Shown: positions 170 to 25,660 of the stretch, piece by piece
Numbering within the stretch: position 1 is the first letter of the stretch
Layout: every line of letters starts with the position of its first letter
From: Deltaproteobacteria bacterium
Lineage (GTDB): Bacteria; Desulfobacterota; Desulfarculia; Adiutricales; Adiutricaceae
Direction: 5' to 3'
NCBI GenBank assembly: GCA_031264145.1
Contig: JAISEK010000019.1
Span: 1 to 53,333, forward strand
DNA length: 53,333 nucleotides
Notes under the pieces: generated by a model
Told to the model about the DNA's origin: nothing
Databases searched by the model: none
The model's input: only the letters and a program-made list of their open reading frames with translations
Translations under genes and position numbers: made by a program

Positions 170-190
170 CCCCCGTGTAAAATGATTTAA

Positions 191-205
191 CCGTGACTAT
201 CACGG
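191..205. other. Short perfect inverted repeat upstream of the recombinase
   Basis: CCGTGA-CTA-TCACGG is a perfect 6-bp inverted repeat with a 3-bp spacer, 25 bases before the recombinase start. It could be an operator or a recombinase core site. There is no further evidence for either. Confidence 0.35.
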
Positions 206-229
206 AATCATCACACGGAGGTTTTGCTT

Positions 230-1033
230 ATGAGAGAGCAATTTGAGGCCCAACTCCGAAAGGCCAATCTTTCGGAAAACACCATCACTTCGTATATGTG
301 GACGGTAGATTTTTACCTGTCCAATTATGACGGGGTAAGCACCGAGAACTTGCTGACGTACAAAGGGTTCTTATTGGAGAAGTACAAGCCAAAGACCGTC
401 AACCTACGGATTCAGGCAATCAACAAGTATCTTGTCTTTTTAGGCGAGGACAAACTTCAGCTGAAATTCGTCAAGGTACAGCAGAAGAACTTTTTGGAGA
501 ACGTCATCAGCAATGCCGATTACACTTTTCTCAAAAAGTCGCTGAAGAAGGACGGCAATATCGAATGGTATTTCGCCGTCTGGTATCTGGCGGCGACCGG
601 GGCGCGGGTCAGCGAACTTGTGCAAATCAAGGTTGAACACGTCCACGCAGGATACTTCGACCTCTACACGAAAGGCGGCAAGTTGCGGCGGCTCTACATT
701 CCGAAAAAGCTGAAACTCGAAACCGTTAACTGGCTGGAAGAAATGAATAGGAGTTCCGGCTATCTTTTTCTCAATCGTTTTGGTCAGCGCATTACCACGC
801 GAGGCATATCACAGCAGTTGAAAAACTACGCTGAAAAATACGGACTGGACACCAAGGTTGTCTATCCCCACTCCTTCCGACATCGATTCGCTAAAAACTT
901 CCTTGAGAAGTACAACGACATCGCTCTGCTCGCTGACTTGATGGGTCATGAGAGCATCGAAACGACACGGATTTACTTACGGAGGACAGCAAGCGAACAG
1001 CAGGCTTTGGTTGACAAAATCGTCACATGGTAA
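230..1033 (+). CDS. Tyrosine recombinase/integrase associated with hsdS
   Basis: A 267-residue tyrosine recombinase. The N-terminal SAM-like DNA-binding region covers about residues 1-95 and the catalytic domain about 100-260. The catalytic set is complete: R126 (GARVSEL), K148 (TKGGK), H214-x-x-R217 (HSFRHRF), H240 (MGHES) and nucleophile Y249 (RIYLRR). The start is ATG 230 rather than the in-frame TTG at 224, because GGAGG at 217-221 sits 8 bases before it. It lies between hsdS and the headless hsdS fragment, on the opposite strand, as do enzymes that shuffle type I specificity genes. An unrelated integrase role cannot be excluded. Its lower GC than the core suggests it arrived with the island. 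Confidence 0.9.
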   Translation: MREQFEAQLRKANLSENTITSYMWTVDFYLSNYDGVSTENLLTYKGFLLEKYKPKTVNLRIQAINKYLVFLGEDKLQLKFVKVQQKNFLENVISNADYTFLKKSLKKDGNIEWYFAVWYLAATGARVSELVQIKVEHVHAGYFDLYTKGGKLRRLYIPKKLKLETVNWLEEMNRSSGYLFLNRFGQRITTRGISQQLKNYAEKYGLDTKVVYPHSFRHRFAKNFLEKYNDIALLADLMGHESIETTRIYLRRTASEQQALVDKIVTW

Positions 1034-1043
1034 AAGCACAAAA

Positions 1044-1064
1044 CACTCCGAGTATTATGGAGTG
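1044..1064. terminator. Possible bidirectional terminator between recombinase and hsdS
   Basis: CACTCC and GGAGTG form a 6-bp stem around a 9-base loop in the gap between the convergent recombinase and hsdS. On the minus strand the hairpin is followed by a T-rich run (TGTTTTGTGCTTTTA). The stem is short, so this is tentative. Confidence 0.35.
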
Positions 1065-1072
1065 CTTCACCT

Positions 1073-2548: not shown

Positions 2549-4032
2549 TCGTTCACCTCACCGATAAGCTGTTCCAAATTATTTATTGCCGTCGCAATGG
2601 CGGATGATTTTCCCTTGATTAAGTCAATCAACTCAGCAAGAGTATAATCGTCAGTGCTGTCTCCCGATTTTATCCAAGTGATGTCGAGACTCGTTTTGTC
2701 GCGAGAAATGATCTCGTCATAGGTAAACCTACGCCACCGCCCGCCGGGATTCTTGTCCGAATTGTAGGTCTCCATGCGGTGATGGCGATTTTCAATGTTG
2801 TAGCACTTCACGAAATCGTCAAGGTCACTTTCGCGAAGAGGATTCTTTTTCAGCGTGTGGTGTATGCCGGTGCGATAGTCGTAAATCCAGACTGCTTTCG
2901 TTTGGTGCGATGGAGCGGCGACATGGTTGTCGAAAAAAATTACATTCGCCTTGACGCCCTGGGCGTAAAAAATACCTGTGGGCAGGCGTAAGATAGTGTG
3001 CAGGTCTGTGGTTTCAAGGAGTTTTTTACGGACGATTTCACCCGCACCACCCTCAAAAAGCACATTATCTGGCACGACAACCGCCGCCGTACCTGTCGTT
3101 TTTAGGAGCGTGTGGATATGCTGGACGAAGTTAAGCTGTTTGTTGGAAGTCGTCGCCCAAAAGTCTTGGCGGCTATAGGTCAAATCCTCCCGCTCCTGCT
3201 CACCCTGCTCGTTGGTGAACGTCATGGATGATTTTTTGCCAAACGGGGGATTGGTGAGGATATAGTCAAACCTTTCGCCGGGATCGGCAAGCAGGGAATC
3301 GGCGCGTGTTATCGGCGGCGTTCCCTCGAAGTCGCTGATGTTGTGCAGGAAAAGGTTCATCAGGCATAGCCGGTAAGTGCTTTGGACGATTTCCCATCCC
3401 TTGAATGTCTTAAATTTTAAGAACTCCTTTTGGTTGCGGTCAAGTCCGGGGCCATATTCGCGTTCGATATAAAACTTTACGGCCAGCAAAAAGCCGCCGC
3501 TCCCGCAGCAAGGGTCAGCGACGGTTTTGTCTGGCTCTGGATGGACGCATCGTACCATGGCACTGATGAGTGCGCGCGGCGTAAAATACTGCCCTGCGCC
3601 GCTCTTGGTGTCGGCGGCTATTTTTTCAAGCAAATCCTCATAGATATCGCCTTTTACATCCGACGACATTGACGCCCAATTCTCGCCGTCGACCATACTG
3701 ATGACTTTGGCGAGCTGGGCGGGATTGGAGATTTTATTCTGCGCCCCTGTGTAAATCTGCTGCAAGGTTCCGGGTTGACCAGCAAGTGCCTTTAGGACCT
3801 GCTCATAATGTTTGAAAAGCTCGTCACCGCTCTTCTCGCGCAAGCTGTCCCAACCGCAATCCTTCGGTATACCGATTTGCCGATTATAGGGCGGCCTAGA
3901 ATACTCGTCCGCCATTTTCACGAACAGCAGGTAGGTAAGCTGCTCAAGATAGTCACTTTTACCAATACCATCGTCACGGAGCGCATTCGCCATTGACCAT
4001 ATTTTTTGCCCAACATTTGAAACGTCTGCCAC
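2545..4032 (-). CDS. hsdM: Type I restriction-modification methyltransferase subunit HsdM
   Basis: HsdM (495 residues) is the S-adenosylmethionine-dependent N6-adenine methyltransferase subunit. The N-terminal helical HsdM domain covers residues 1-130 (LEQLTYLLFVKM near 29-40). Motif I is DPCCGSGGF at 173-181 and catalytic motif IV is TNPPF at 260-264. Length and motif order are normal for a gamma-class HsdM. It sits between hsdR (15 bp upstream) and hsdS (4-bp overlap), in the order hsdR-hsdM-hsdS. With HsdS alone it would form the modification enzyme and with HsdR the restriction complex. It is not similar enough to the orphan HsdM at 42213-43763 to suggest a recent duplication. Confidence 0.96.
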   Translation of the reverse strand: MADVSNVGQKIWSMANALRDDGIGKSDYLEQLTYLLFVKMADEYSRPPYNRQIGIPKDCGWDSLREKSGDELFKHYEQVLKALAGQPGTLQQIYTGAQNKISNPAQLAKVISMVDGENWASMSSDVKGDIYEDLLEKIAADTKSGAGQYFTPRALISAMVRCVHPEPDKTVADPCCGSGGFLLAVKFYIEREYGPGLDRNQKEFLKFKTFKGWEIVQSTYRLCLMNLFLHNISDFEGTPPITRADSLLADPGERFDYILTNPPFGKKSSMTFTNEQGEQEREDLTYSRQDFWATTSNKQLNFVQHIHTLLKTTGTAAVVVPDNVLFEGGAGEIVRKKLLETTDLHTILRLPTGIFYAQGVKANVIFFDNHVAAPSHQTKAVWIYDYRTGIHHTLKKNPLRESDLDDFVKCYNIENRHHRMETYNSDKNPGGRWRRFTYDEIISRDKTSLDITWIKSGDSTDDYTLAELIDLIKGKSSAIATAINNLEQLIGEVNE

Positions 4033-4047
4033 TTCAAGCCTTCCATA

Positions 4048-6891
4048 TTACGCCGCTTTAAGAAGCGTGTGGTTCATTTCATTCAGGATGCTCTCATACT
4101 CGTCACCAAAAAGCTGATGAAACTTGCCAAGCCCGCCTTTTGCGTCAAAGGGCGTATAGCCGAGGTCGTCCACCGTGATGCTCATGGATGCGGCAATATG
4201 GTCGCGCACCATTTGGAGCCATTCGGTCTGCTCCTCGGTAAATTGTCCGTGTCCGGCGTTTTTGTCGAACATCCATTCACGGAAACGGACATTGACTACA
4301 TCAGAGAATAGGCGCAAGTCGTCAGTTTGTCCCAATTGGAAACGGATCAACGAGACAATGTCAGCGAGTTTATTAATGACACTTTTCTGCCTTACCTTAT
4401 CGGGACGGCGAATTGAATACGCCATCCACAGCTTTTCCGTGGTCAGATGGTAAGGTGGGTTCCACAATATCTCATAGAGTTCCTCCACCATGCGCAGGGT
4501 CAACGTGCGGTTGCGGTAGCTCTGGCTGTAGATAATTTTCAAGGCGTCAATATTGTCCTTGTTATCCTCGATAAAGCGGGCAAAGCTTTCTATAACTTCT
4601 CCGGCTTTTTTAGCGGGCTCGGAATCCCAGCCGCTGAACGTCACCTCGTCTATATTGACATTATCAATCACTTGGTCATGAGTCTTGCGAACGTTTTCAA
4701 TATAATCACGTAATTTGGGATTGTCGAATGGAACGGCAGAGGCAATCGCCATTTGCCTGCTGACGGTTTTCATTTGCTCGTCTGTTATAGCCTGCGCCTC
4801 CTCAATGTCAAACTTTTTCCGTGCGACTTCCTCGATTACGTCTTCGTCAAAGGCGTTCAGCAGGGTCTCGGCAATGGCAATAACTGAGATTTCGCCATCA
4901 AAAGGAACCTCAATACTGCCCACTATGGCTATACCGAGCGATATACATTCATCATGGCAAAGTGCAGTAAACTTCTCTTTTTCGACGGCGGTCATTACCT
5001 TGTCCAATCGCGCGAGACGGCTCGCCAGTGTGGTCAGAGTGTCGTCATCGTGCGCCCCCATTGCGACGCTCATCATTATGTCTTTCAGCGACACGGAAGG
5101 CTTGCGCTCCAATTGACGCGATGTTGTTTTTTGAGAGGTGGTTACACCCACTGCGTCCACAATAATATATCCGAGTTTCCGTTGAGTCGCTGACGGGGAA
5201 ACACGGTGCAGATTTTCATAGTCAAGCGTCCGTGTGGCACGTCCGAGCATTTGCTCAAAGTAGTTTTTACTCCGAACATCGCGCATAAATATCAGGCACT
5301 CAATTGGTTTTACGTCCGTGCCTGTGGCTATCATGTCAACCGTGACGGCAATCCGCGGATAAAAGTCGTTGCGAAACGAATTAAGGACGCTTTTAGGGTC
5401 ATCAGTGGCGTAAGTTATTTTTTTGCAAAACTCGTTGCCTTCGGAAAACACCTCACGGACAGTGTTGATTATGTCGTCAGCATGGCTGTCCGTCTTGGCG
5501 AAGATAAGCGTTTTGGGAATTTCCGTCTGACCTGGGGAGATAAGCACTCTGTCTGGAAACATCTCCGATAACGCATCACGAAACGCGCTGATTACAGCCC
5601 TTATCTGCGATGGATTGACCACATCGCGATCAAGCTGTGTCGGCGCATAGGTGAAATCGTCATCAAGTTGTTCCCAACGCTTTCTGCGAGATAAGCGGTC
5701 GCGCTTCTGCACAATCTGCTTGAGAATAACACCGCCTTTGTTTCCAGCGTTTGTTTCAATGAGATAAGTGCCTTCACGCCCGACGTTCACATCGTCCAAA
5801 ACAGCCTGTTCGTGGGTGTACTCGCTGACAATATTCTGCTTAAAATATCCGAACGTACGATTATCCGGTGTTGCGGTCAGGCCAATCAAAAAAGCGTCGA
5901 AATAATCCAAAACCTGCTGCCAGACATTGTAGATGGAACGATGGCACTCATCTATGATAACGAAATCGAAGAATTCAGGCGGGTACTCAGAATTGTAAGC
6001 GACTTCTCGGGGACTACCTATAATCCGCTGCTCGTTCATCGACGTTTCCTCAACTGAATCGTCAAGTTCCTCACCGCGCAGGATGGAGTACATACGCTGA
6101 ATCGTGCTGATGCAGACTTTCGTTTCAGGCGGGATATGCGGCGAATTGAGCCGGCGCACGTTGTACAGTTCCGCAAACAGCCGCACGTCGTCAGGCGGTC
6201 TGTATTTTAGAAATTCACCCTCCGCCTGTTCGCCGAGATTTTTGGTGTCGACTAAAAACAACACACGCCTTGCTTTGGCATACTTCAACAAACGATAGAC
6301 TGAGGTTATCGCCGTGTAGGTCTTGCCCGCTCCCGTCGCCATCTGAATAAGCGCCCGAGGTTTGTTGTCAGCAAGCGATTGTTCAAGATTCCGTATGGCA
6401 GTTACTTGGCACTTGCGGAACAACCCCTGCCCGTTGAAGCTGGGAAACGATTTCATTCTGTTTCGCAGTGTGCCGCTGTCCTTAAGCAGTTCCGACAGCG
6501 TCTCGGGACGATGAAACGAAAATACTTCCCGAGAACGGGCCTTTATATCATGGAAGTCGCAAAAATGAGTCAAAACACCAGTCGATTCATAAGTGAAACG
6601 AATATCAGGCCTTCCGGAGACATGCTTCAAGCCACTTTCAGCATAACGTTTGGACTGTTCGACTACTGTGGTGAGGGAAACTCCTTTATTTTCCGCTTTG
6701 GCTTCAAGCACGCCGATAGGGCAGCCATTAATGAACAGCAAATAATCCACGGGGCCGCTGTTGGTCGGATATTCCCTTACGGCCACGCCACAGGCAGCAG
6801 TTTTTTTGAATTCCTGGATATCCTGGACAATGTAGCCGGAGTGGTCCAGCATCTGGTCAATCTTCTGGCGGGCTTTATCTTCTGGCTTCAT
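4048..6891 (-). CDS. hsdR: Type I restriction enzyme motor/nuclease subunit HsdR
   Basis: HsdR (947 residues) supplies ATP-driven DNA translocation and cleavage. The N-terminal PD-(D/E)xK nuclease shows D49 (GPVDY), E63-A-K65 (GVLEAKAE) and the following Q-x3-Y motif (EQSKRY). The superfamily 2 motor has Walker A MATGAGKT near 184-191, the Walker B DECH box (IIDECHRSIYN) and later helicase motifs (GRATR). The C-terminal helical domain, which binds HsdM-HsdS, ends NHTLLKAA. The ATG at 6891 is preceded by GGAG about 10 bases upstream. No lesions are visible, so all three subunits appear intact. It is the first gene of the operon. Confidence 0.95.
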   Translation of the reverse strand: MKPEDKARQKIDQMLDHSGYIVQDIQEFKKTAACGVAVREYPTNSGPVDYLLFINGCPIGVLEAKAENKGVSLTTVVEQSKRYAESGLKHVSGRPDIRFTYESTGVLTHFCDFHDIKARSREVFSFHRPETLSELLKDSGTLRNRMKSFPSFNGQGLFRKCQVTAIRNLEQSLADNKPRALIQMATGAGKTYTAITSVYRLLKYAKARRVLFLVDTKNLGEQAEGEFLKYRPPDDVRLFAELYNVRRLNSPHIPPETKVCISTIQRMYSILRGEELDDSVEETSMNEQRIIGSPREVAYNSEYPPEFFDFVIIDECHRSIYNVWQQVLDYFDAFLIGLTATPDNRTFGYFKQNIVSEYTHEQAVLDDVNVGREGTYLIETNAGNKGGVILKQIVQKRDRLSRRKRWEQLDDDFTYAPTQLDRDVVNPSQIRAVISAFRDALSEMFPDRVLISPGQTEIPKTLIFAKTDSHADDIINTVREVFSEGNEFCKKITYATDDPKSVLNSFRNDFYPRIAVTVDMIATGTDVKPIECLIFMRDVRSKNYFEQMLGRATRTLDYENLHRVSPSATQRKLGYIIVDAVGVTTSQKTTSRQLERKPSVSLKDIMMSVAMGAHDDDTLTTLASRLARLDKVMTAVEKEKFTALCHDECISLGIAIVGSIEVPFDGEISVIAIAETLLNAFDEDVIEEVARKKFDIEEAQAITDEQMKTVSRQMAIASAVPFDNPKLRDYIENVRKTHDQVIDNVNIDEVTFSGWDSEPAKKAGEVIESFARFIEDNKDNIDALKIIYSQSYRNRTLTLRMVEELYEILWNPPYHLTTEKLWMAYSIRRPDKVRQKSVINKLADIVSLIRFQLGQTDDLRLFSDVVNVRFREWMFDKNAGHGQFTEEQTEWLQMVRDHIAASMSITVDDLGYTPFDAKGGLGKFHQLFGDEYESILNEMNHTLLKAA

Positions 6892-7276
6892 TGCGTTAAC
6901 GCTCCATGTTCCGTGTAGTTCGAATTATCGGAAGATGCCTCTTGAAAAGCGGACGTAAGTTACCGCCTAGTTTTGATGAATTATATTCACAACCAAAATA
7001 TAATATCAGTTCAACGGGATAAATGCCAGAATTGTAAACGGACTAACCAGACTTGAAAATAGAGAGGACACTTCGGCAGTGTGTTATTATACCCAATGCC
7101 TAAAAGATCTGCCTCCTCAAGGTACGGAAAAAGCAACGGGACGCCTACTTTATGCAACCGGGTCAAGAGTTTTATTTTTTCTCTGGAATATTAGTCATGT
7201 TATTGTTTTACTGCAAGAAGTAAAATAATCAATTATCTGATTCATGAGAGCCGGGCAAATCCAGCAATTTTACCGC
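6892..7276. other. Intergenic region upstream of hsdR
   Basis: No gene is evident here. The minus strand has a TATAAT-like -10 word (6980-6985) about 90 bases before hsdR, without a convincing -35 box. An hsd operon promoter probably lies nearby, but I cannot place it with confidence. Confidence 0.3.
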
Positions 7277-7610
7277 CTATAACTTGCTTGCCTGGGCAAG
7301 AAATGAGTGCCTGAGAGTCGTCTTCATATCGACGTGTCCCATCTGTTCCTTCACGGTGTTCAGGTCGGCACCTTTCATAAACAAGCTGGGAGGCGAATTC
7401 ATGCCGCATGTAGTGCCAGCGGGAGTTTTCGATTTCAGCCTTTTCAAGAAGGTTTTCCCACACAGTGTTTCAGTTGTCCATCACATTTCCGACCAGCGGC
7501 GAGGGGAAAAAGAAGCTGCCGGGGGAAGCATGCCTGGACTGACTGTGTTAGCTGGAGATCGCGTCGAACGCGAGGGTGTTCATCGGCGCGTAATACTGCC
7601 TGTCGTTTTC
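7277..7610 (-). pseudogene. Decayed phage-type tyrosine integrase (C-terminal remnant)
   Basis: Read across frames, the minus strand gives the C-terminal half of a phage integrase: APMNTLAFDAISS, FFFPSPLVGNVMDN, NTVWENLLEKAEIENSRW, HYMRHEFASQLV, then after a frameshift MKGADLNTVKEQMGHVDM and KTTLRHSFLAQASKL ending in TAG. At least three lesions are visible: a stop after AISS, TGA for Trp after MDN (near 7470), and a frameshift at about 7378. The catalytic tyrosine position (normally LRYAHL) reads LRHSFL. The N-terminal half is missing. It is probably a relic of the element that brought the flanking restriction genes. Confidence 0.8.
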
Positions 7611-7743
7611 ATAAGGTAGCTTCTATTTTAAGCAGACAAAGGTAATGGAGATGCTCTATTAATGTTGATAGGATGTTAAACAGGCATTTATAGTTTTATA
7701 AAATATAAACATTTATAATCAATGATAGTATAATTAAAAAATA

Positions 7744-8666
7744 TTAAAAATAGCCATTTTTTAGGATATATATCTCGTTTATATTTTCATAAGTAAGCAC
7801 AGATAAGACATTAAATATAAAACGTTGAAAAAGATCAGCATAATATGGATTTTTTTTAAGATATAACATGTAATCTTTTCGGTTTTTTTCCGACCTTGAT
7901 AAGTTGAAAAATTTTCACGTATTTTAGTGGGAATTCTTCGATCTTTTCTTAAAATTATTACTTCATCTATATCTGTTGCAGAGGAACTTATAGGTGTCAT
8001 ATCTAAAAAATCACATAAAAGGTAATATTTTGCACCCGATACTGCTAATTTTACATCATGTGCAGTCGCAGATGCTTCTTGAAACATCGTTTTATCGAGG
8101 TTAGTTTTGAGTTCTGCTACTATAAAACCAAGATTAGTTGATATACTAATAGTTTTATCTACATCAAAATTTTCACTATAGGATGATTTAAGGTAAATTT
8201 TCTTAGTCAATGCAAAGTCTTGATACTTAGTTTTTATAGCCATTCCACCACCAATCAATGGATTACTCATACTAATTTTAAATAATAATGATGAATAAGT
8301 ATCTGTTTGTGGTTCAATAGTCCAAGTATTGTTTTTAATACTTATATCTAGAGATTTACGAACGAGAATTGGTAAAAATTCTTCTAAAATAGAATTATCA
8401 AGTTTAAGTTGGCCTTTTTATCGATATAAAAAATTATTAACACTGTCAAAAATTAAATCTAAATCAATAAAATTTTTGTATATATTAAGTTCTTTAACTA
8501 ATATGTCAACAAGCTGTTGAACATTATCTCCCTTAACTGAGTTAATTCGTTCTATCCAAGATTGATACTTTTTGAAAGCAACTTCTAGGCCACGTTTATC
8601 ACTAGCTGGGAGCTTTTTGTTTTCAAGCGCAGAAATCAATTTTTGACCATGTATCCCGTAAGTCAT
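7744..8666 (-). pseudogene. Bpu10I-like type II restriction endonuclease, interrupted
   Basis: The gene would encode about 305 residues resembling the Bpu10I endonuclease family (matched from memory, not by search). The first 82 codons (start ATG 8666) end at an in-frame TAA at 8418-8420. The same frame continues with LILEEFLPILVRKSLDI-like sequence, then GFIVAELKTNLDKTMFQEA (E-x-K of the PD-(D/E)xK nuclease core), AKYYLLCDFLDMTPIS and NFSTYQG. A second lesion lies at an eight-A run (T8 at 7850-7857 on plus). Adding one base restores NPYYADLFQRFIFNVLSVLT, ENINEIYILKNG and a stop at 7744. The ATG overlaps the methyltransferase stop by 4 bp. It is either a pseudogene or homopolymer-switchable with stop suppression; sequencing error is possible. 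Confidence 0.75.
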
Positions 8667-9853
8667 TTGAAACCCTCCGATGCAAAGACCTTATGTGAAT
8701 TTTTAATGGCATCAGAAAAATAGAATCTTAATTTATCATCTATATTTATTGCAAATGACTTTGATTGTAACATATTAACTGCAATTTCTCTTGAATATAA
8801 AAGTAAATCCTGATCTAAAATTGTTACTTTATTCTTATTTTTATTAGAAAAATGCAATATATCTTCATAAATATATTGTCCAAATTTGTTTTTAAATACT
8901 CGTTGTTGTTTAAGAAGGAGTGATAGACTAAATATTCTGCTTCCTATATCAAAAATTAATTGACTATTAGAAATTGCAGAAGATAATACATTTGATTCTC
9001 TTCCAACTACAAGTATTATTCGTGCCTCTGGTTTACATACTCGTACCATTTCTTTAAGTGCTAAAGACATGTCAATACTATATTGAATAACAGTTAAAAG
9101 ACGATTTGACCGATTTTTTCTATTTGAACCAACTTCTTTTTTTGCAATATTAAGTACATCAAAGCCCAATAATTCTACTGATTTACGATAATTCTGATGA
9201 TAATTAAAGACATTGATATAAGGTGGCGATGTTATTATCAAATCAATATAATTATCACTGTAAGGAAGATTCCTGGCATCGCCAAGATAAGCTTGTATTG
9301 TTTTTTTAGTATATGGTAAATTTAAAATAATATTTTTTATTTTTCTCCATTTTGACATTAATAAAATTTTTGAAAAATTATTTTTAAAAACATCAATCAA
9401 AATAATTAAAAGAGAAAGCAAGTTTTTTATAGTATTATCTTCGCATTCACTAATATTACTAGATAGGACTTCCAACGGTTTTTCGGTTATAAGAGATTTT
9501 ATCAAAATTACCTCTACTTTTTTTAATAAATCAATTCTTTCATCTTTTAAAAACTCACAATATTCATAAATTTTTGATATATAATAAGCAGATGGATTTA
9601 ATACAACACCATAAGCTGAGATATTTTTTCTTGCGCACTCTAATAAAACTGTTCCGGAGCCTAAAAAAGGATCTGCTACAACAATAGAGCCATATGTATA
9701 TTTATTTAATAAAACTTCAATAAATTGTGGTGAAAATTGACCGTTCCACGTAAAATTATTTGAACGAGTTTTATCACTAATGTCAAGTAAAGATTGGTCA
9801 ATTTCACTGGAATTAAATTGTATAGCACTATATAATTGAGATAGGGAACTCAT
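8663..9853 (-). CDS. Type II DNA methyltransferase (probable N4-cytosine or N6-adenine)
   Basis: A 396-residue amino-methyltransferase. Motif I is DPFLGSGTVL (61-70), the SAM-binding turn. Catalytic motif IV is TSPPY (208-212), the form most typical of N4-cytosine enzymes. The roughly 140 residues between I and IV probably carry target recognition, giving an alpha-like motif order. The frame is intact and AT-rich. It is translationally coupled (ATGA) to the broken endonuclease downstream, so it is the presumed protective partner of that enzyme. Its ATG at 9853 also overlaps the TGA of the truncated IS630 transposase, so its native upstream region was lost. Whether it now acts only as an orphan methylase depends on the endonuclease lesions. 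Confidence 0.88.
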   Translation of the reverse strand: MSSLSQLYSAIQFNSSEIDQSLLDISDKTRSNNFTWNGQFSPQFIEVLLNKYTYGSIVVADPFLGSGTVLLECARKNISAYGVVLNPSAYYISKIYEYCEFLKDERIDLLKKVEVILIKSLITEKPLEVLSSNISECEDNTIKNLLSLLIILIDVFKNNFSKILLMSKWRKIKNIILNLPYTKKTIQAYLGDARNLPYSDNYIDLIITSPPYINVFNYHQNYRKSVELLGFDVLNIAKKEVGSNRKNRSNRLLTVIQYSIDMSLALKEMVRVCKPEARIILVVGRESNVLSSAISNSQLIFDIGSRIFSLSLLLKQQRVFKNKFGQYIYEDILHFSNKNKNKVTILDQDLLLYSREIAVNMLQSKSFAINIDDKLRFYFSDAIKNSHKVFASEGFK

Positions 9854-10172
9854 AATAGTATATCATTATATTTAATATAAATTAAGTCTATATTAGTTGT
9901 AATGATTAATTTATTGGACACATAAGAAGAATCTTCATCAGCTACCATAATTATAAACTTATTTTGATGATTTTTATTTACATATCTTAAGAACAGAGAC
10001 ATACTTTCAGCTTTCATATTATCTCTCATTATATAATTTAGCTGACCAGTCTTTGGTGCGATAGCACCAAAGATAAACCTATACTCGTACTCACGAACAA
10101 GAACTTTGCGAAATGTGGGCCGGTAAGGCAATGGAGCTCAACAACGTTTGGGATCTGATTCCAAAACGTCCC
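9850..10172 (-). pseudogene. IS630-family transposase remnant
   Basis: The minus strand reads an internal piece of an IS630-type DDE transposase: RPTFRKVLVREYEYRFIF, GAIAPKTGQLNYIM, then FIIMVADEDSSYVSNKL with one catalytic Asp region, ending TNIDLIYIKYNDILL. Upstream codons continue the match in broken form (SDPKRC, stop in place of Trp, APLPYRP; before that, frameshifted, GRFG). Both the N-terminus and the C-terminal acidic residue are missing. It lies exactly at the change from AT-rich island to GC-rich trpS, so the insertion sequence probably marks the island boundary. It is not functional. Confidence 0.8.
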
Positions 10173-16243: not shown

Positions 16244-17593
16244 ATGTTCGAAAAACTGTCAGACAAGTTCTCCAAAGTCTTCCAGAAGCTCCGCGGCCGG
16301 ACCAGGCTGAGCGAGGCCGATCTCAAGGAAACCCTCCGCGAGGTCCGCCTCTCCCTGCTGGAGGCGGACGTGAACTACAAGGTGGTCAAGGACTTCCTGG
16401 CCACACTGTCGCAGAAGACGCTGGGGATGGAGGTCCAGAGGAACCTCACCCCGAGCCAGCAGATCATCAAGGTCATCTACGATGAGCTGGCCGAAATGAT
16501 GGGCGGCGACTTCGTCGGCCTGGATCTGTCGGGGCGGCCGCCGTGGCCCATCATGCTGGTCGGCCTGCAGGGCTCAGGCAAGACGACCACGGCCGGCAAG
16601 CTGGCCCTGTACCTGAAGAAGCAGGGCCACAGCCCCTACCTGGTACCGGCCGACGTGGCCCGGCCGGCGGCAATCGCCCAGCTGGCCAAGCTGGGTCAGG
16701 ACCTGGGCATCCCGGTCCATCCCTCTGAATCTGGCATGACCCCGGTCTCCATCGCCGAGGCCTCCCTGGCCGCGGCCGGGATGGCCGGCTGCGACGCCAT
16801 CCTGCTCGACACGGCCGGCCGGCTTTCCATCGACCAGGAGCTGATGAGGGAGCTGACGGAGATAAAGGCGGTCACCAGGAGCGTCGAGATACTCCTGGTG
16901 GCCGACGCCATGACCGGCCAGGAGGCCGTGAACATAGCCTCCGAGTTCAACAAGAGGCTCGATCTGACCGGCGTGATCCTGACCAAGATGGAGGGCGACG
17001 CCAGGGGCGGTGCGGCCATGAGCATCAGGGCCGTCACCGACAAGCCCCTGAAGTTCATCGGCGTGGGCGAGAAGCCCGAGGCCCTGGAGCCCTTCCACCC
17101 CGACCGCATGGCCTCCCTGATCCTGGGCATGGGCGATGTCCTGAGCCTGATAGAGAAGGCCCAGGAGTCCATGACCGAGGAGGACGCCAACAACATAACC
17201 TCCAGGGTCATGAAAGGCAGCTTTTCCCTGGACGATTTCCGCAAGCAGCTCACCGCCCTGAGCAAGATGGGCAGCCTGGAGTCCTTCATTGGCATGATAC
17301 CCGGCCTGGGCAAGCTCAAGAAGCTGAAGGAGGCCAAGCCGGACCCGGCCCAACTGGTCAAGATAACGGCCATCATCGACTCGATGACCTTCGAGGAAAG
17401 GCGCGACCACCTCATCATCGACGCCAGCCGCCGCAGGCGCATCGCCCTGGGCAGCGGGACCACCGTCCAGGACGTCAACAAGCTTCTGAAGAACTTCGCC
17501 GACGTCGTAAAGACGATGAAGATGGCCTCCAGGTCAGGGGGGATCGAGGCCCTGGGCCGCCGGCTCTTTGGTAACGCGGACTTCCTGTCATAG
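16244..17593 (+). CDS. ffh: Signal recognition particle GTPase Ffh (SRP54)
   Basis: 449 residues with the full Ffh layout: N domain (1-95), GTPase G domain with G1 GLQGSGKTT (107-115), DTAGR, TKMEGDARGG and GVGEKPEALEPF, and a C-terminal M domain that binds SRP RNA and signal sequences (FIGMIPGLGKL, then the RRRRIALGSG motif). The methionine-rich M domain is shorter than in E. coli but complete. It works with 4.5S RNA (not found in this window) and FtsY to target membrane proteins. It is followed by a hairpin terminator and then, about 480 bp on, by rpsP. Confidence 0.98.
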   Translation: MFEKLSDKFSKVFQKLRGRTRLSEADLKETLREVRLSLLEADVNYKVVKDFLATLSQKTLGMEVQRNLTPSQQIIKVIYDELAEMMGGDFVGLDLSGRPPWPIMLVGLQGSGKTTTAGKLALYLKKQGHSPYLVPADVARPAAIAQLAKLGQDLGIPVHPSESGMTPVSIAEASLAAAGMAGCDAILLDTAGRLSIDQELMRELTEIKAVTRSVEILLVADAMTGQEAVNIASEFNKRLDLTGVILTKMEGDARGGAAMSIRAVTDKPLKFIGVGEKPEALEPFHPDRMASLILGMGDVLSLIEKAQESMTEEDANNITSRVMKGSFSLDDFRKQLTALSKMGSLESFIGMIPGLGKLKKLKEAKPDPAQLVKITAIIDSMTFEERRDHLIIDASRRRRIALGSGTTVQDVNKLLKNFADVVKTMKMASRSGGIEALGRRLFGNADFLS

Positions 17594-18071: not shown

Positions 18072-18311
18072 ATGGCCCTCAAAGTCAGACTGGCCCGGTT
18101 GGGCGCCAAGAAGAAGCCCTATTACCGCTTGGTGGTGGCGGACAGCGCCGCCAAGCGCGACGGCCGCTTCCTGGACATCGTCGGTTTCTATGACCCCAAC
18201 AGGAATCCGGCCTTCGTGGAGATCAAGCGGGAACTTTTGGACGACTGGATGCGGAAGGGGGCCAGGCCGACCGAGACCGTGGCCAGCCTGATAAAGGCCA
18301 AGAAGGCCTGA
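18072..18311 (+). CDS. rpsP: 30S ribosomal protein S16
   Basis: 79 residues beginning MALKVRLARLGAKKKPYYRL, the family signature, with GRFLDIVGFYDP and a basic tail. Length is normal. It is a component of the small ribosomal subunit and a 16S rRNA assembly protein. AGGAG lies 9 bases upstream of the ATG. In many deltaproteobacteria a KH-domain gene follows rpsP. Here the 92-bp gap to rimM cannot encode one, so it is absent from the operon. Confidence 0.98.
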   Translation: MALKVRLARLGAKKKPYYRLVVADSAAKRDGRFLDIVGFYDPNRNPAFVEIKRELLDDWMRKGARPTETVASLIKAKKA

Positions 18312-18403
18312 CCCGCGGACGGCCCAGGGCGGTCCCCATCCCCCGGCCACATTTGGGGGGGCGGCGGCCCTCCCGCCGGCCAGCCATCCCCAATCCTAGG
18401 CCA

Positions 18404-18928
18404 ATGGAAAGCGGCAACCTCATAACGCTAGGCCGGATCGTCAGGGCCCACGGGGTCCACGGGGCGGTGCGGGTGGCCTATTACGGCCAGGACCCGGAGG
18501 GTTTCCTCGACGCCCCGCGCCTGTGGCTCATCCCCCGCGGCGGCGGGCCCGTGCCCCTTGGCGGGCACAGGGGCAAGATCGTCCCCGGCGGGCTCATCAT
18601 GAAACTTGACGGCTGCTCGTCCAGGGAGGCGGCCATGGACCTCTCCGGCTCGGAGCTAGCCGTGGCCAGGGAGGATCTTCCGGCGCCGGGGGCCGACGAG
18701 TTCTACCAGGCCGATCTGCTGGGCCTGGAGGCCGTCACCTCGGCCGGCCGCAGCCTGGGCCGGGTCACCAACCTGATGGACCACGGCCTCCTCCTGGTGC
18801 TGTCCATCACCGGCCAGGACGGCCGCGAGACCCTGGTGCCCTTCTCCGAGGACTGCGTGCCGGAGGTCGATCTGGACGCCGGCCGCCTGGTGGTCTCCGA
18901 GCTTCCTGGCCTTTTGGACCAGACATGA
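18404..18928 (+). CDS. rimM: 16S rRNA processing protein RimM
   Basis: 174 residues. The N-terminal beta-barrel RimM domain opens with LITLGRIVRAHGVHGAVRV (G-R-I-x2-x-H-G signature). The C-terminal PRC barrel follows DEFYQADLLGLEAV and ends VVSELPGLLD. It assists 30S head assembly and binds S19. ATG 18404 is preferred to the in-frame ATG at 18353 because it begins just before the conserved domain; the extra 17 residues would be Pro/Arg-rich and unlike the family. Its TGA overlaps the trmD ATG (ATGA at 18925). Confidence 0.93.
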   Translation: MESGNLITLGRIVRAHGVHGAVRVAYYGQDPEGFLDAPRLWLIPRGGGPVPLGGHRGKIVPGGLIMKLDGCSSREAAMDLSGSELAVAREDLPAPGADEFYQADLLGLEAVTSAGRSLGRVTNLMDHGLLLVLSITGQDGRETLVPFSEDCVPEVDLDAGRLVVSELPGLLDQT

Positions 18929-20049
18929 TCTTCGAGGTCCTGACCCTTTTCCCGGACATCTTCAAATCGTTCCTGGCCGAGTCCCTTCTGGCCAAGGCCC
19001 GGGCCAAGGGCCTGGTCTCCGTCGAGCTGGTCAACATCAGGGACTTTGCCCACGACCGCCACCGCACTGCCGACGACCGCCCCTACGGCGGCGGTCCAGG
19101 CATGGTCCTGAAGGCCGAGCCGGTGGCCCTGGCCCTGGAGTCCCTCCTATCGTCCGGCGGCCCCAGGCCGCTGGTCATAAACCTGACCCCCTCCGGCCGC
19201 CTCCTCGACCAGGCCCTGGTCCGGCGCCTTTCCGGCGAGAGGAGGCTGATCCTCATTTGCGGGCGCTACGAGGGCATCGACCAGAGGGTGCTGGACCGGT
19301 TCGCGGACCTTGAGCTGTCAGTCGGCGACTACGTCCTAAACGGCGGCGAGGTCCCGGCCATGGCCATCATGGAGGCCGTCTCCAGGCTGATCCCGGGTTT
19401 CCTGGGACGCCCGGAGTCGAGCGAGGACGAGAGCCACAGCTACGGCCTCTTGGAATACCCGCTCTACACCAGGCCCCGGCAGTGGCGGGGCCTGGAGGTG
19501 CCCGGGATTCTCCTCTCCGGCCACCATGCCCAGGTGGCCGCCTTCCGCCTGGCCGAGGCCGTGGCCAAGACCAGGTCCATCCGGCCCGAGCTCCTCGAGG
19601 ATCCGGACCTGGTCGAGAGGGTGGCCGAAGTCCTCGGCGCCCAGGGCTCGGCCATGGGGCCAAGAGCCAGGAAGCGCCCCGGGCCATCATCCCAGAGCCC
19701 AATCCCCCCTGGCCGGAGCGGCGGTGAGCATATGCCCCATAAGGAAATAAACGGCAAAACCTTCCCGGTCGATGACGAGGGCTTCCTCCTGGACCACGTC
19801 CTCTGGGACGAGGACTGGGTCATGATAGTCGCCGGGGAAGAGGAGATTGAGGAGTTGACCGATGATCACCGGGCCGTGCTCGAGTCGCTCCGGGCCTACC
19901 GGGACGAGCACGGCCTCCCTCCGCGGGTCAGGGACATGACCCAGGTCACCGGATTCAAGATGAAGTATATCTACGAGATGTTCCCCTCCGGTCCCGGCAA
20001 GGGGGCCTGCAAGATGGCCGGCCTCTCTAAGCCCGAGGGCTGCGTCTGA
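18925..20049 (+). CDS. trmD: TrmD tRNA (guanine-N1)-methyltransferase fused in frame to DsrC
   Basis: One uninterrupted frame of 374 codons. Residues 1-240 are TrmD (m1G37 of tRNA, SAM-dependent, trefoil knot): DDRPYGGGPGMV, ICGRYEGIDQRV, SVGDYVLNGGEVPAM, LLEYPLYTRP and LLSGHH. After a Pro/Arg/Gly/Ser-rich linker (about 241-269), residues 270-374 are a full-length DsrC: INGKTFPVDDEGFLL, ELTDDHRAVLE, TGFKMKYIYEMFPSGP and GKGACKMAGLSKPEGCV. Both swinging-arm cysteines are present, ten residues apart, the last penultimate. DsrC carries the trisulfide intermediate of dissimilatory sulfite reductase. DsrC could also start alone at ATG 19732 (GGTGAG three bases upstream). No rplS follows, unlike the usual trmD order. 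Confidence 0.9.
   Translation: MIFEVLTLFPDIFKSFLAESLLAKARAKGLVSVELVNIRDFAHDRHRTADDRPYGGGPGMVLKAEPVALALESLLSSGGPRPLVINLTPSGRLLDQALVRRLSGERRLILICGRYEGIDQRVLDRFADLELSVGDYVLNGGEVPAMAIMEAVSRLIPGFLGRPESSEDESHSYGLLEYPLYTRPRQWRGLEVPGILLSGHHAQVAAFRLAEAVAKTRSIRPELLEDPDLVERVAEVLGAQGSAMGPRARKRPGPSSQSPIPPGRSGGEHMPHKEINGKTFPVDDEGFLLDHVLWDEDWVMIVAGEEEIEELTDDHRAVLESLRAYRDEHGLPPRVRDMTQVTGFKMKYIYEMFPSGPGKGACKMAGLSKPEGCV
19732..20049 (+). CDS. dsrC: DsrC sulfur carrier, possible separate internal start
   Basis: If translated from ATG 19732 (preceded by GGTGAG, three bases away) the product is a stand-alone DsrC of 105 residues, the normal family length. It has the C-terminal C-x10-C pair of true DsrC rather than the single cysteine of TusE. 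This supports a sulfite- or sulfate-reducing, or sulfur-oxidising, metabolism. It is the same DNA as the 3' part of the trmD frame. Whether the cell makes the fusion, the short form or both cannot be read from sequence. Confidence 0.6.
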   Translation: MPHKEINGKTFPVDDEGFLLDHVLWDEDWVMIVAGEEEIEELTDDHRAVLESLRAYRDEHGLPPRVRDMTQVTGFKMKYIYEMFPSGPGKGACKMAGLSKPEGCV

Positions 20050-20137: not shown

Positions 20138-22450
20138 ATGAGCCCAAACCTCCGGCTTAAGCTGGAAGATCTGCGACGGTTCCGCCGAACGTTTGAGCGC
20201 GAGATGGCCGCCTTCCTGCCAGGCTACCAGGTTTCCGTGGGGCCGTTTCCCGAGGACTGGGCCCAGTGGACGGCCCAGGTTTTTTTCCGTGGCCAGGTCG
20301 CGGGCCTGGCCTCCATGAGGCTCAGGGAGGACGCCGAGCCGGCCGCCGAGGGCCTTTTCGAGGTCTGGCCCAGGCTGGTCGAGTCGGCCCTGGAAAAGGT
20401 GGCCTTCAGGAAGGCCCTCATAACCGACCCCGAGACGGGCCTCAACAACGGCCAGCGCCTGAAGGCCAGGCTGGTCGATCTCCTGAGGCCCCCCGAGACC
20501 GGCCCCAGGGCCCTTGGCCTGTGGGACAACGGCGAATCGCCGGCCCTGGTTCTGGCCCTCTCCGAGATAGGCGGCGACAGGCGCCCCTCCCGCCGGGAGA
20601 TGCTGGACATGGCCTCGGCCCTCAAGGGCATCCCAGGCCTGATATGCCTGGCGCGCCTGGGCGACCGCAGGCTGGGGGCCATCTTCCGGGCCGGCCCCAG
20701 CGAGGCCCTGGCCAGGCTGGATCAGGCCAGGGCCGCCGCCCTGTCCATGGGGCCCAATGGCCCCTACCTCTCTGGCTACGCCCTCTTTCCCCAGGATCTG
20801 GCCCTCGACCCGGCAGGCCCCTTCCTCAGGCCAAGGGACGCGGCCCAGGCCCTTCTGGACAAGGCCGAGACGGCCCTCAACTTCGCCTACGGCCGACGGC
20901 ATCCGGCCCCGGTCATCGGCTTTGGCCATCTGGTCAACTCCTACGGCCAAATCACCCAGCCGCTGCCCCAGAGCCGGGTGGTCATAAACCTGGGGAGCCC
21001 CATGGGGGCCATGCCCGGGCAAGTATTCTCCGTCATTGGCCAGGGCGGCGAGCCCAAGGGCGAGATCACCGTCTTCGAGACCGGTGAGGGCTATTCCCTG
21101 GCCCATGCCCCGGAAAGCCGCGCCGGCCGTCTGGCCGCCGGGGACAGGCTCTCCTTCTCCCGAATCGACTGGTCTGGCCACCCGGCGGCCTCTACGGTCG
21201 ACGGCAGGAAGGCCCTTGAGGCCGAGACCTTCCGCAAAAGCCTGGCCCGGCTGGCCCAGGGGCCCTTGCCGCTGGTCCTGGCCCTGGCCCGGCTGGACGA
21301 CCACGAGCGCCTCGCGGCCATGGCCGGGGAGGAGGAGCTGGCCGGCCGCCTGGACTTGGTGGCCCAGAGGGCCCAGGGCGGGACTTCCGCCCCCCCGGAA
21401 CTCTGCGCCGGCTATGGCCAGGGCACCCTGGCCATGGTCTGGACCGGGCTTTCCCAGGAGACGGCCAGGGAAGAGGCCCTGGGCCTGGTCAGGGCCCTCG
21501 GTGGCCAGGCCCCCCTGTCCATGGGCCTGGTCTGCTGGCCCAACCCCGTCCTGGCCCCCGAAGGCCTGATGAAGGCGGCCCAGGACGCCCTGCTTGAGGC
21601 TGCCATGACCGGGCCGGAGACCGTCAGCGTCTTCGGGCCCCAGACCCTGAACATCTCGGGCGATCACCTCTTCGACGAGGGCGACCTGAGGGGGGCGGTC
21701 GTGGAGTACCAGAGGGGCCTGATCCTGGATCCTGGCCACCTGAACCTCCTCAACAGCCTGGGCGTCTGCCAAGGACGCCTGGGCGACCACAGGGCGGCCA
21801 TAGCCGCCTTCGACGAGGTGCTTGGCCTCAGCCCTGACAACCTCTTCGCCCACTTCAACAAGGGCTGCTCGCTTATCCTGAGCGGCCGGCTGGAGGAGGC
21901 CGAGCAGTCCCTCATGAGGGCCCGGGAGACGGCCCCGGACAACTTCGAGGTCCTCTTCCACCTGGGCAAGACGGCCCTGGAGCTTGGCCATCTCGACCTG
22001 GCCCTGGCCACCCTTCCCAGGGCCTCGGAACTCAAGGGGCACCGCGGGGGCATCCATCGCCTCCTCGGCCAGATACGTCTCCTGACCGATGACCGGAAGG
22101 GTGCCCTGGCGGCCTTCAAGAAGGCCGTCAAGCACAACCCTGACGACGCCGACAGCCTGTCCGCCCTGGGGGCCCTGTTCCTGGAGTCAGCCAACGACCA
22201 GGAAGTGGCCCTGTCCCTCTTTTCGCGCAGCGTGGAGCTGGACCCCACCAACAGCCTCTTCCGCCAGCGCCTGGGCCGCCTCCTGTACCTCATGGGCGAC
22301 TACAAGTCGGCCGAGCACCACCTCAAGTCGGCCCTGGACTACGGCTGCCGGGCCGAGGACGTCCGCCAGCAGCTGGCCGAGCTGAGGGAAAGGCATGCAG
22401 GCCTGGCCCCCGGGTCAGGGGACCAAGCAGTAGCCGGGTTGGAGGAATAG
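20138..22450 (+). CDS. Degenerate GGDEF-like / TPR protein of unknown function
   Basis: 770 residues. The segment at about 110-270 starts DPETGLNNGQRLKARL, which resembles the opening of GGDEF domains (normally D-x-LTGLPNR). No GGDEF or GGEEF active-site word is present, so diguanylate cyclase activity is unlikely. A second similar segment may lie near 360-500. From about 510 to 740 there are at least six tetratricopeptide repeats (for example AVVEYQRGLILDPGHLNLLN, AIAAFDEVLGLSPDNLFAHF), a protein-interaction superhelix. There is no signal peptide or membrane segment, so it is cytoplasmic. Its start lies 88 bp after trmD-dsrC on the same strand, and it may be co-transcribed. Probably a scaffold or signalling adaptor; not recognised by name. 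Confidence 0.75.
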   Translation: MSPNLRLKLEDLRRFRRTFEREMAAFLPGYQVSVGPFPEDWAQWTAQVFFRGQVAGLASMRLREDAEPAAEGLFEVWPRLVESALEKVAFRKALITDPETGLNNGQRLKARLVDLLRPPETGPRALGLWDNGESPALVLALSEIGGDRRPSRREMLDMASALKGIPGLICLARLGDRRLGAIFRAGPSEALARLDQARAAALSMGPNGPYLSGYALFPQDLALDPAGPFLRPRDAAQALLDKAETALNFAYGRRHPAPVIGFGHLVNSYGQITQPLPQSRVVINLGSPMGAMPGQVFSVIGQGGEPKGEITVFETGEGYSLAHAPESRAGRLAAGDRLSFSRIDWSGHPAASTVDGRKALEAETFRKSLARLAQGPLPLVLALARLDDHERLAAMAGEEELAGRLDLVAQRAQGGTSAPPELCAGYGQGTLAMVWTGLSQETAREEALGLVRALGGQAPLSMGLVCWPNPVLAPEGLMKAAQDALLEAAMTGPETVSVFGPQTLNISGDHLFDEGDLRGAVVEYQRGLILDPGHLNLLNSLGVCQGRLGDHRAAIAAFDEVLGLSPDNLFAHFNKGCSLILSGRLEEAEQSLMRARETAPDNFEVLFHLGKTALELGHLDLALATLPRASELKGHRGGIHRLLGQIRLLTDDRKGALAAFKKAVKHNPDDADSLSALGALFLESANDQEVALSLFSRSVELDPTNSLFRQRLGRLLYLMGDYKSAEHHLKSALDYGCRAEDVRQQLAELRERHAGLAPGSGDQAVAGLEE

Positions 22451-23138: not shown

Positions 23139-24074
23139 TCACTCCTTGGCGAACAGCTGGGTGGAGAGGTAGCGCTCGCCGGTGTCCGGCAGGATGACAA
23201 GGACGGACTTGCCCTTGTTCTCGGGCCTCTTGGCCAGCTCCGTGGCCGCAAAGAGGGCGGCGCCCGAGGAGATGCCCACCAGCAGGCCTTCCTTGGTCCC
23301 GACCTCCCGCGAGGCCTCGAAGGCGTCCGGGGTCTTGACCCTAAAAATCTCGTCGACCACTTTGGGGTTGTAGACCTGGGGGACGAAGCCGGCCCCTATG
23401 CCCTGGATCTGGTGGGGGCCGGGCTTTTCGCCCGAAAGGACGGAACTGTCGAAGGGCTCGACGGCCACGACGCGAAGATTGGGATTGGTCTTCTTGAGTT
23501 CCTCGCCCACGCCGGTGATCGTGCCGCCAGTGCCCACGCCCCCGACTATGACGTCGACCTTGCCCCCTGTGTCCTCCAGGATCTCCTTGGCCGTGGTCAG
23601 GCGGTGGACCTCGGGGTTAGCCGGGTTGTTGAACTGCTGGGGGACGAAGGAGTTGCCAATCTGGGTCTGGAGTTCCTCGGCCTGGCGGATGGCACCCTTC
23701 ATCCCCTCGGATCCAGGCGTCAGCTTAAGCTCTGCCCCCAGGGCGTAAAGGAGCTTGCGGCGCTCCAGGCTCATGGTCTCGGGCATGACCAGGATGATCC
23801 TGTAGCCCTTGGCGGCCGCCACGAAGGCCAGGCCTATGCCGGTGTTGCCACTGGTCGGCTCTATTATGGTGGTGTTCTTGTCGATGAGGCCCTTCTTCTC
23901 GGCGTCCTCGATCATGGCCAGGGCGATGCGGTCCTTGACGCTGCCAAGGGGGTTGAAGTACTCGAGTTTGGCCAGCAGGTCGGCCAGCACCCCCCTGGCC
24001 TGGCCATAGCGGTTGAGCCTCAGGAGAGGGGTTTTGCCGATCAGATCGGTCAAACTCTCGGCAATCTTGGTCAT
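23139..24074 (-). CDS. cysK: Cysteine synthase (O-acetylserine sulfhydrylase)
   Basis: A PLP enzyme of 311 residues that makes cysteine from O-acetylserine and sulfide. The PLP lysine is K47 in [14 protein letters not shown] binds the substrate carboxylate, GGVGTGGT the PLP phosphate, and SSGA precedes the C-terminal segment. Length and motifs fit CysK/CysM A-type enzymes. ATG 24074 follows AGAGGTGAAC, a good ribosome site. It is divergent from the cystathionine synthase/lyase gene, with a roughly 230-base leader containing an attenuator-like terminator. A strong hairpin follows, so it is probably monocistronic. Confidence 0.96.
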
Positions 24075-24168
24075 TGTTCACCTCTTCGCTTTTTCCGGCG
24101 GCGGTTGCCGGCCGTTGTTGGTTTCCGGGCTCCGGCGGTGCCAGGCCTGGGGAAAACTGGCAATCGTC

Positions 24169-24206
24169 AAAAAAAAACGCCAAGGGCACCTCTCGGTACT
24201 CTTGGC
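24169..24206 (-). terminator. Intrinsic terminator inside the cysK leader
   Basis: On the minus strand GCCAAG (24201-24206) pairs with CTTGGC (24179-24184). An inner TACC/GGTG stem is capped by a GAGA tetraloop, and a run of nine T follows after one base (24177-24169). It lies between the cysK promoter and the cysK ATG, so it should stop most transcripts unless it is prevented from folding. Confidence 0.8.
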
Positions 24207-24306
24207 CTTCAGCTTAAACTGATTGGCTGTCCAAAACGTCGCCCTTGGAAGATCTCTGCCCGTTTCTGATGCCGCAGGTCACCCTCCACCTTCCGCGTCG
24301 GGACTG
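24207..24306 (-). promoter_or_regulatory. Candidate attenuator/riboswitch-like leader of cysK
   Basis: About 100 transcribed bases precede the leader terminator. Segment CCAAGGGC (24241-24248 on minus) is the exact complement of GCCCTTGG in the 3' arm of the terminator (24180-24187), so pairing would act as antiterminator. Upstream, GGAAG (24290-24294) can pair with CTTCC (24247-24251), which overlaps the antiterminator by two bases, and CTGC/GCAG can form inside. This gives a two-state switch. The word GGTGGAGGG recalls SAM-I aptamers, but the rest does not follow that consensus. I do not recognise a known class. Confidence 0.5.
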
Positions 24307-24312
24307 TGGACT

Positions 24313-24340
24313 AGTATATTCTAATGGGTCCCGGTGTCAA
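24313..24340 (-). promoter_or_regulatory. Sigma-70-type promoter for cysK
   Basis: On the minus strand TTGACA (24340-24335) and TATACT (24318-24313) are separated by 16 bp: a perfect -35 and five of six in the -10. Transcription would start near 24306 and give a leader of about 230 bases before the cysK ATG. Confidence 0.8.
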
Positions 24341-24529
24341 CCTTTTTTTTTGGGCCGAATTTTGCTAAAGTGAAAAACCTTTTTCCTGATCCGCAACGTG
24401 CAGTATTCACTTGCTTTTTCTCGTCCCATCGTCAAACAGGGACCTCTCCCAGATGTCCCGGTACCTTACCCTCTTGCGGAAACGCTACTCCCATGGCCCA
24501 GGCGTTAGCCCCGGCCCGAGACCAGGCCA

Positions 24530-25660
24530 ATGAAGCTTGACACCATCTGCGTCCACGGCGCCAGGGACAAAAACAACCATACCGGCTCTCTGGCCGTGCC
24601 CATATACCAGTCGGCCACCTATGCCCACCCGGCAGTGGGGCAGAGCACGGGCTACGACTACGCCAGGGTCCAGAACCCGACCAGGGAGGCCCTGGAGGGC
24701 CTCGTGGCCGCCATGGAACGCGGCAGGGAGGCCCTGGCCTTCTCCTGCGGCATGGCGGCCATGGACGCCGTCCTGGCCCTTTTCGGGCCCGGCGACCACA
24801 TCATCTGCGCTGACGACCTCTACGGGGGTTCCGTAAGGCTTTTGGCCTCCCTGGAAAGACGCATGGGCATTTCCGTCGACTATCTGGACGCCAACGACCG
24901 CGAGACGCTCCAGGGGGCCCTGCGCCCGGAGACCAGGGCCGTCTTCATCGAGACTCCCTCCAATCCCATGATGAAGGTGACCGACATACGGGCAGTCAGG
25001 GAAACAATAGGGCCGGCAGTAAAGCTCATCGTCGACAACACCTTCCTGACGCCCATCTTTCAGAGGCCCCTGGAGCTGGGGGCGGACATGAGCCTCCACA
25101 GCGGGACAAAGTACCTGGCCGGCCACAACGACACACTGGCCGGCTTCGTGGTCACCAACGACGCCGGGGACGCCGAGCTCCTGAGGCACGCCACCAAGAC
25201 CGTTGGCAGCGGCCTGACCCCTTTTGACAGCTTCCTGGTAATAAGGGGCCTAAAGACGCTCCCCCTGCGCATGGCCAAAAGCCAGGAGAACGCCCTGGCG
25301 CTGGCCGAATTCCTTGGCCGACACCACAGGGTGGCCAAAGTATTCTACCCTGGACTCATCGACCACCCTGGCCGAGAGATTTCCCTCCGGCAGTCCAGCG
25401 GCTTCGGGGCCATGATCTCCTTCGAGGTCGATTCCGAGGACACGGCCAAGAAGGTTCTGGAGAAGGTTGGCCTGATCCTGTACGCGGAGAGCCTCGGAGG
25501 GGTCGAGACCCTGATTACCTACCCCCTCATACAGACCCACGCCGACGTCCCGGTCGAGACCAGGGAGTCCCTTGGCATAAATGGTCGGCTCTTGAGGCTC
25601 TCCGTTGGCGTTGAGGCCCTGGAGGATCTTCTGGCCGATCTGGCCCAGGCGCTAGACTGA
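24530..25660 (+). CDS. Cystathionine gamma-synthase/lyase family PLP enzyme
   Basis: 376 residues of the Cys/Met-metabolism PLP family. Signature positions are seen: YDYARVQNPTREALE, the SCGMAAMDAVL loop, YGGS, ETPSNP, DNTF and PLP lysine K194 in SGTKYLAGHND. Members interconvert cystathionine, homocysteine and cysteine (MetB, MetC, CGL). The motifs do not separate gamma-synthase from gamma-lyase. Length is normal. It is divergent from cysK, so the pair probably forms a sulfur amino-acid unit, with one enzyme fixing sulfide as cysteine and the other moving it to or from homocysteine. A clear promoter for this strand was not found. Confidence 0.92.
   Translation: MKLDTICVHGARDKNNHTGSLAVPIYQSATYAHPAVGQSTGYDYARVQNPTREALEGLVAAMERGREALAFSCGMAAMDAVLALFGPGDHIICADDLYGGSVRLLASLERRMGISVDYLDANDRETLQGALRPETRAVFIETPSNPMMKVTDIRAVRETIGPAVKLIVDNTFLTPIFQRPLELGADMSLHSGTKYLAGHNDTLAGFVVTNDAGDAELLRHATKTVGSGLTPFDSFLVIRGLKTLPLRMAKSQENALALAEFLGRHHRVAKVFYPGLIDHPGREISLRQSSGFGAMISFEVDSEDTAKKVLEKVGLILYAESLGGVETLITYPLIQTHADVPVETRESLGINGRLLRLSVGVEALEDLLADLAQALD

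Follow-up and report, generated by a model that had tools for sequence, protein, structure and literature searches.

A single open reading frame joins TrmD and a two-cysteine DsrC in the Adiutricaceae: a probable gene fusion in the making

A stop-free frame that runs from the gene of a tRNA methyltransferase into that of the sulfur-carrier protein DsrC raises the question whether the two proteins have become one enzyme or whether two neighbouring genes have lost the boundary between them. The frame lies on contig JAISEK010000019.1 (assembly GCA_031264145.1) of an Adiutricaceae bacterium, in a window of 53,333 nucleotides, by which the whole stretch of DNA that was analysed is meant. A sequence-only reading had described a complete TrmD joined to a complete DsrC with both active cysteines, and this description has been confirmed by the sequence and by profile matches. 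The frame (18925-20049, plus strand) extends from ATG to TGA over 374 codons (374 amino acids) with no internal stop. Residues 1 to about 226 match TrmD over its full length (NF000648, 291.8 bits, cut-off 220; TIGR00088, 273.2 bits, cut-off 195), and residues 274-374 cover the entire profile of the DsrC/TusE family (PF04358, 97 bits; TIGR03342, 82 bits; above cut-off). The same residues are matched in sequence by the DsrC chains of solved dissimilatory sulfite reductases (2xsj, 2v4j and 3or2), and the C-terminus, ACKMAGLSKPEGCV, carries both cysteines, Cys362 and Cys373, at a spacing of 11 residues. The linker described earlier between the two domains is also present; its extent had to be corrected to about 23-40 residues. 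An AlphaFold2 model built from 76 aligned sequences (mean pLDDT 88.5) consists of two confident domains, with residues 244-266 below 50, and all the top PDB matches found for it with Foldseek are TrmD (E about 1e-26), which points to a TrmD fold. No second trmD or dsrC was found in the source genome, a draft of 198 contigs with 96% completeness. Moreover, no match among plasmid records spans 80% of the fusion, and no report of a TrmD-DsrC fusion was found in the open-access literature, which does not prove its absence.

Table 1. Coordinates of the joined frame, its parts and the surrounding operon in the window
Feature	Position	Strand	Evidence
ffh (SRP54), first gene of the conserved operon	16244..17593	+	Pfam SRP54, 232.8 bits; synteny in relatives
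rpsP (ribosomal protein S16)	18072..18311	+	Pfam Ribosomal_S16
rimM, stop overlapping the trmD start (ATGA)	18404..18928	+	TIGR02273, 122.8 bits
TrmD domain, residues 1-226, predicted tRNA m1G37 methyltransferase	18925..19602	+	NF000648 and TIGR00088 above cut-off; pLDDT mostly >85
Tail and linker, residues 227-269, stop-free in frame	19603..19731	+	residues 244-266 predicted disordered; poorly conserved among fused genomes
GGTGAG, Shine-Dalgarno-like box of dsrC, inside the frame	19723..19728	+	duplex energy; GGTGA conservation
ATG, internal start of DsrC (Met270)	19732..19734	+	start codon retained in 5/5 fused genomes
DsrC domain, 105 aa, both redox cysteines (Cys362, Cys373)	19732..20049	+	PF04358, TIGR03342; solved relatives 2xsj, 2v4j, 3or2
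770-aa protein with C-terminal TPRs, constant dsrC neighbour across the family	20138..22450	+	Pfam; synteny in relatives

Searches covered all 37 genomes of the family in the analysis, and trmD and dsrC were found on the same strand within 420 nt of each other in 19 of them. Five of the 37 have an open, in-frame joint, namely the source genome (G000) and G005 of the source genus, and G019, G027 and G030 of a second genus. The suggestion of the sequence-only reading to look for the same fusion in related genomes has therefore yielded the same stop-free arrangement in four relatives, and the two genes are not always separate in the family, though most relatives keep them so. In the unfused joints the genes lie in different frames or a stop intervenes, for example a stop followed by a gap in G003, G008, G015 and G022; overlaps in other frames amount to 19 nt (G002), 4 nt (G033) and 1 nt (G024). 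Across a spread sample of 127 genomes from elsewhere in the phylum, none of the matches listed spans TrmD and DsrC, and a joined one would be expected among the highest-scoring entries. A contig scan, which may leave out records near the window, also gave no near relative with the fusion. The fusion frame is thus true, recurrent and restricted to the family.

In an IQ-TREE phylogeny of the ffh-rpsP-rimM-trmD-dsrC proteins, in which some internal branches are weak (47-54%), the fused genomes are interspersed with unfused ones and do not form one clade, and the two genera are well separated. The unfused genomes G002, G006 and G001 are nested within the G000-G005 grade, and the unfused G024 stands beside G027 and G030, which form a supported fused pair. 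With losses counted as free, this tree implies at least two independent origins of the fusion; some four changes are needed overall.

These observations are probably best explained by a labile trmD-dsrC joint, at which the trmD stop has been lost, a 41-kDa TrmD-DsrC is made together with free DsrC from internal initiation, and the joined state is near neutral. The two genes would be transcribed together, side by side in the last part of an ffh-rpsP-rimM-trmD-dsrC-TPR operon, and the stop codon of trmD would have been lost in the source genome. Translation of trmD would then continue through the variable, disordered linker into DsrC, because dsrC stands in the same frame with no stop between, and the sequence predicts a polypeptide of 41 kDa. 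Since no in-frame signal ends TrmD, only a ribosomal frameshift would prevent synthesis of the fusion polypeptide. TrmD should still be dimeric and methylate tRNA, with DsrC as a flexible appendage. In coupled gene pairs, mutation of the stop codon is the most frequent origin of such overlaps (PMC10666635), and repeated loss of the trmD stop is the most likely course here. The joint is most likely evolutionarily labile and near neutral, reflecting turnover of the junction and not a fixed bifunctional enzyme.

Internal initiation probably yields free DsrC as well, because the old start codon and ribosome-binding box survive in frame. Its predicted mass is about 12 kDa and not roughly 11 kDa as first estimated. 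The start codon of DsrC is ATG in all five fused genomes. Just upstream of it GGTGA, part of the extended Shine-Dalgarno sequence, is found in six of the seven genomes of the source genus, both fused ones included, whether dsrC is fused to trmD, adjacent to it or kilobases away; in the window only 1.3% of ATGs have GGTGA within 13 nt upstream. The predicted pairing energy of the 19 nt upstream of the dsrC ATG in the source genome is -9.3 kcal/mol, equal to that of the TPR gene, and trmD's own is -3.0 kcal/mol. However, Shine-Dalgarno-like energies are common in this GC-rich DNA: random sites reach -9.3 or better in about 5% of cases, and 5 of 63 in-frame ATGs score better. The box of G019 is weak (-2.5), so DsrC there might arise mainly as the fusion. 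The kept start codon and GGTGA box support tight coupling with internal initiation at ATG 19732, which had been put forward as the alternative to a fusion; the two probably hold at the same time, and two products from one frame would be the most economical reading.

It has also to be considered that the products are separate only, with almost all DsrC initiated at ATG 19732 and a read-through protein that is scarce, cut within the linker or broken down. The stronger predicted box of dsrC in comparison to that of trmD would suit such a division, as would the predicted disorder of the linker, which is presumably accessible to proteases. In sulfate reducers, moreover, DsrC is abundant and TrmD is not. 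However, TrmD has no in-frame end, and each ribosome that translates trmD should enter DsrC; nor is there any known processing site, and we regard this explanation as unlikely.

A selected bifunctional protein, in which the fusion is the main product and the cell benefits from the tether between DsrC and TrmD, for instance through sulfur or redox delivery to tRNA modification, is slightly less likely still. The open frame in five genomes of at least two lineages would be expected of it, and the linkers of the fused genomes differ in length by multiples of 3 nt. DsrC also stands in a translation operon in the absence of DsrAB, and MnmA and TusA are encoded in the genome. Further, among 11 tight junctions five open in-frame joints were seen against 1.3-2.2 expected by chance from composition (P 0.006-0.05, uncorrected for shared ancestry). 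Two chance estimates were used; the null that also shuffled the coding tail is too strict and the other is fairer. These P values are not strong because the genomes share ancestry, and the slight excess of open joints is not clearly above chance. Given this excess and a linker pN/pS below 1, mild selection may nevertheless act on the joined product. Against a selected enzyme, the fused state is scattered among close relatives that are unfused, the internal start is retained, and the source genome, in which no DsrE-family protein was matched, offers no TusBCD-type relay to DsrC. The linker is also poorly conserved: identity among the fused genomes is 38-70% in the linker and 71-86% in the domains, and pN/pS in the linker is 0.3-0.5 in comparison to 0.15-0.34, which indicates weaker constraint, though some constraint may act on it. 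Codon use of the linker in the source genome (-0.14, against 0.54 with SD 0.16 for its genes) is as expected if the segment was recently non-coding, and in G030 the linker is not far from the genes of that genome.

An assembly or sequencing error that deleted a stop or shifted the frame, conceivable for a contig of a draft in 198 pieces, is very improbable and largely refuted, since the same open frame occurs in four other genomes.

The gene order around the joint is a ppiD-like gene, ffh, rpsP, rimM, trmD, dsrC and the gene of a 770-aa protein with C-terminal TPRs. The TPR gene follows dsrC in nearly every genome of the family with a long enough flank, even where dsrC is far from trmD, and its product may therefore be a functional partner of DsrC; its first ~500 residues have no Pfam family match. 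In relatives of the same order but of other families, dsrC lies elsewhere and rplS comes after trmD; a dsrC-TPR cassette has probably been relocated to a position behind trmD in the source family. In the one of these relatives examined for it, G037, the gene between trmD and rplS encodes a Tm1570-like methyltransferase (PF09936). In relatives khpA lies between rpsP and rimM; here these genes leave a gap of only 92 nt (18312-18403), too short for it. Just past the TPR gene, a cysteine synthase gene (minus strand) and a cystathionine gamma-synthase/lyase-like gene (23139-25660) place sulfur amino acid genes near the operon. At the other end, window positions 1-10000 form an AT-rich island (GC 0.38-0.47 versus 0.66). 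It encodes a type I restriction system (hsdR-hsdM-hsdS, minus strand) and, at 8663-9853, a further DNA methylase.

The real puzzle is the conserved two-cysteine DsrC that stands without DsrAB inside a translation operon. Both cysteines are kept in 36 of the 36 family genomes where dsrC was found, and DsrA (TIGR02064) was above cut-off in none of the 37 family genomes, in comparison to three of four sister-family genomes of the same order (G037, G039 and G040). The proposal that the fusion ties a translation-fidelity enzyme, or its operon, to dissimilatory sulfur metabolism therefore fails, and such a link of DsrC is rejected. Dissimilatory sulfate reduction was also not reported for Adiutricaceae in termite-gut metagenomes (PMC9137090). 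Weak DsrA hits of ~300 aa match AsrC-like siroheme proteins, below cut-off. The copy of the source genome lies on contig C113 (L168:506-12075) inside an assimilatory sulfate cluster, which comprises an ABC transporter, an AprA-like reductase (NF005331), CysD/CysN, the AsrC-like siroheme protein, TusA and a MoeB/ThiF-like protein.

A 2012 paper stated that the second DsrC cysteine occurs only alongside DsrAB and named Methylococcaceae, Marinobacter and Lawsonia as the exceptions (PMC3397948); the source family appears to be a further one. With a whole family that has a two-cysteine DsrC against the published rule, it is a good place to study other roles of DsrC. A role as TusE in a relay is unsupported: no DsrE-family protein (PF02635) was matched in the source genome, with control genomes positive, and hence no TusBCD-type relay to DsrC is available. 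Among candidates for a DsrK-like partner, a CCG-domain search returned LdhH/GlpC-like and HdrB/SdhE-like proteins, neither an evident DsrK, and another match on contig C88 (L202). That DsrC serves tRNA thiolation or assimilatory sulfur handling would be a guess. It may be speculated, as a rather remote idea, that DsrC was freed by the family's loss of DsrAB, recruited to the translation operon and tethered to TrmD in several lineages, where it would supply sulfur or redox information to tRNA modification without TusBCD or DsrEFH.

In comparison to known systems, the DsrC/DsvC proteins of sulfate reducers (PF04358, TIGR03342; 2v4j, 2xsj, 3or2) share the fold family, both C-terminal cysteines and a 100-residue match with the domain described here, whereas their defining partner is missing in this family. 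TusE of the Tus relay for tRNA 2-thiouridine belongs to the same superfamily, and MnmA and a single TusA are present in the source genome. In TusE-type proteins, however, the second cysteine is normally missing (PMC3397948); the DsrC of the source genome has two cysteines and reaches 42.1 bits with the TusE equivalog (NF008562), far under the cut-off of 191, and DsrE-family TusBCD proteins are lacking. Overlapping coupled operon pairs likewise show the same strand, short or negative spacing and a downstream start within the upstream frame (PMC10666635). Unlike in those pairs, the overlap of trmD and dsrC is in the same frame, so that a full fusion results and there is no termination event after which ribosomes could re-initiate. 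The nearest parallel is TrmD-Tm1570 (PF01746-PF09936; Calditerrivibrio nitroreducens, PDB 8b1n), which also carries a second domain on the C-terminus of TrmD; depending on the bacterium, the partner gene stands apart from trmD, lies next to it, overlaps it or is fused to it, and the fused form is an active homodimer (PMC11187310). The partner there is a second knotted RNA methyltransferase, whereas here it is a sulfur-carrier protein, and no PF09936 gene was found in the source genome. The Tm1570-like gene of G037 stands directly after trmD, in the position of dsrC in the source family. TrmD-DsrC goes through the same series in that slot with another partner, and a single family displays the two neighbours as separate, touching and overlapping genes and as one joined frame, so that a gene fusion can be watched as it forms.
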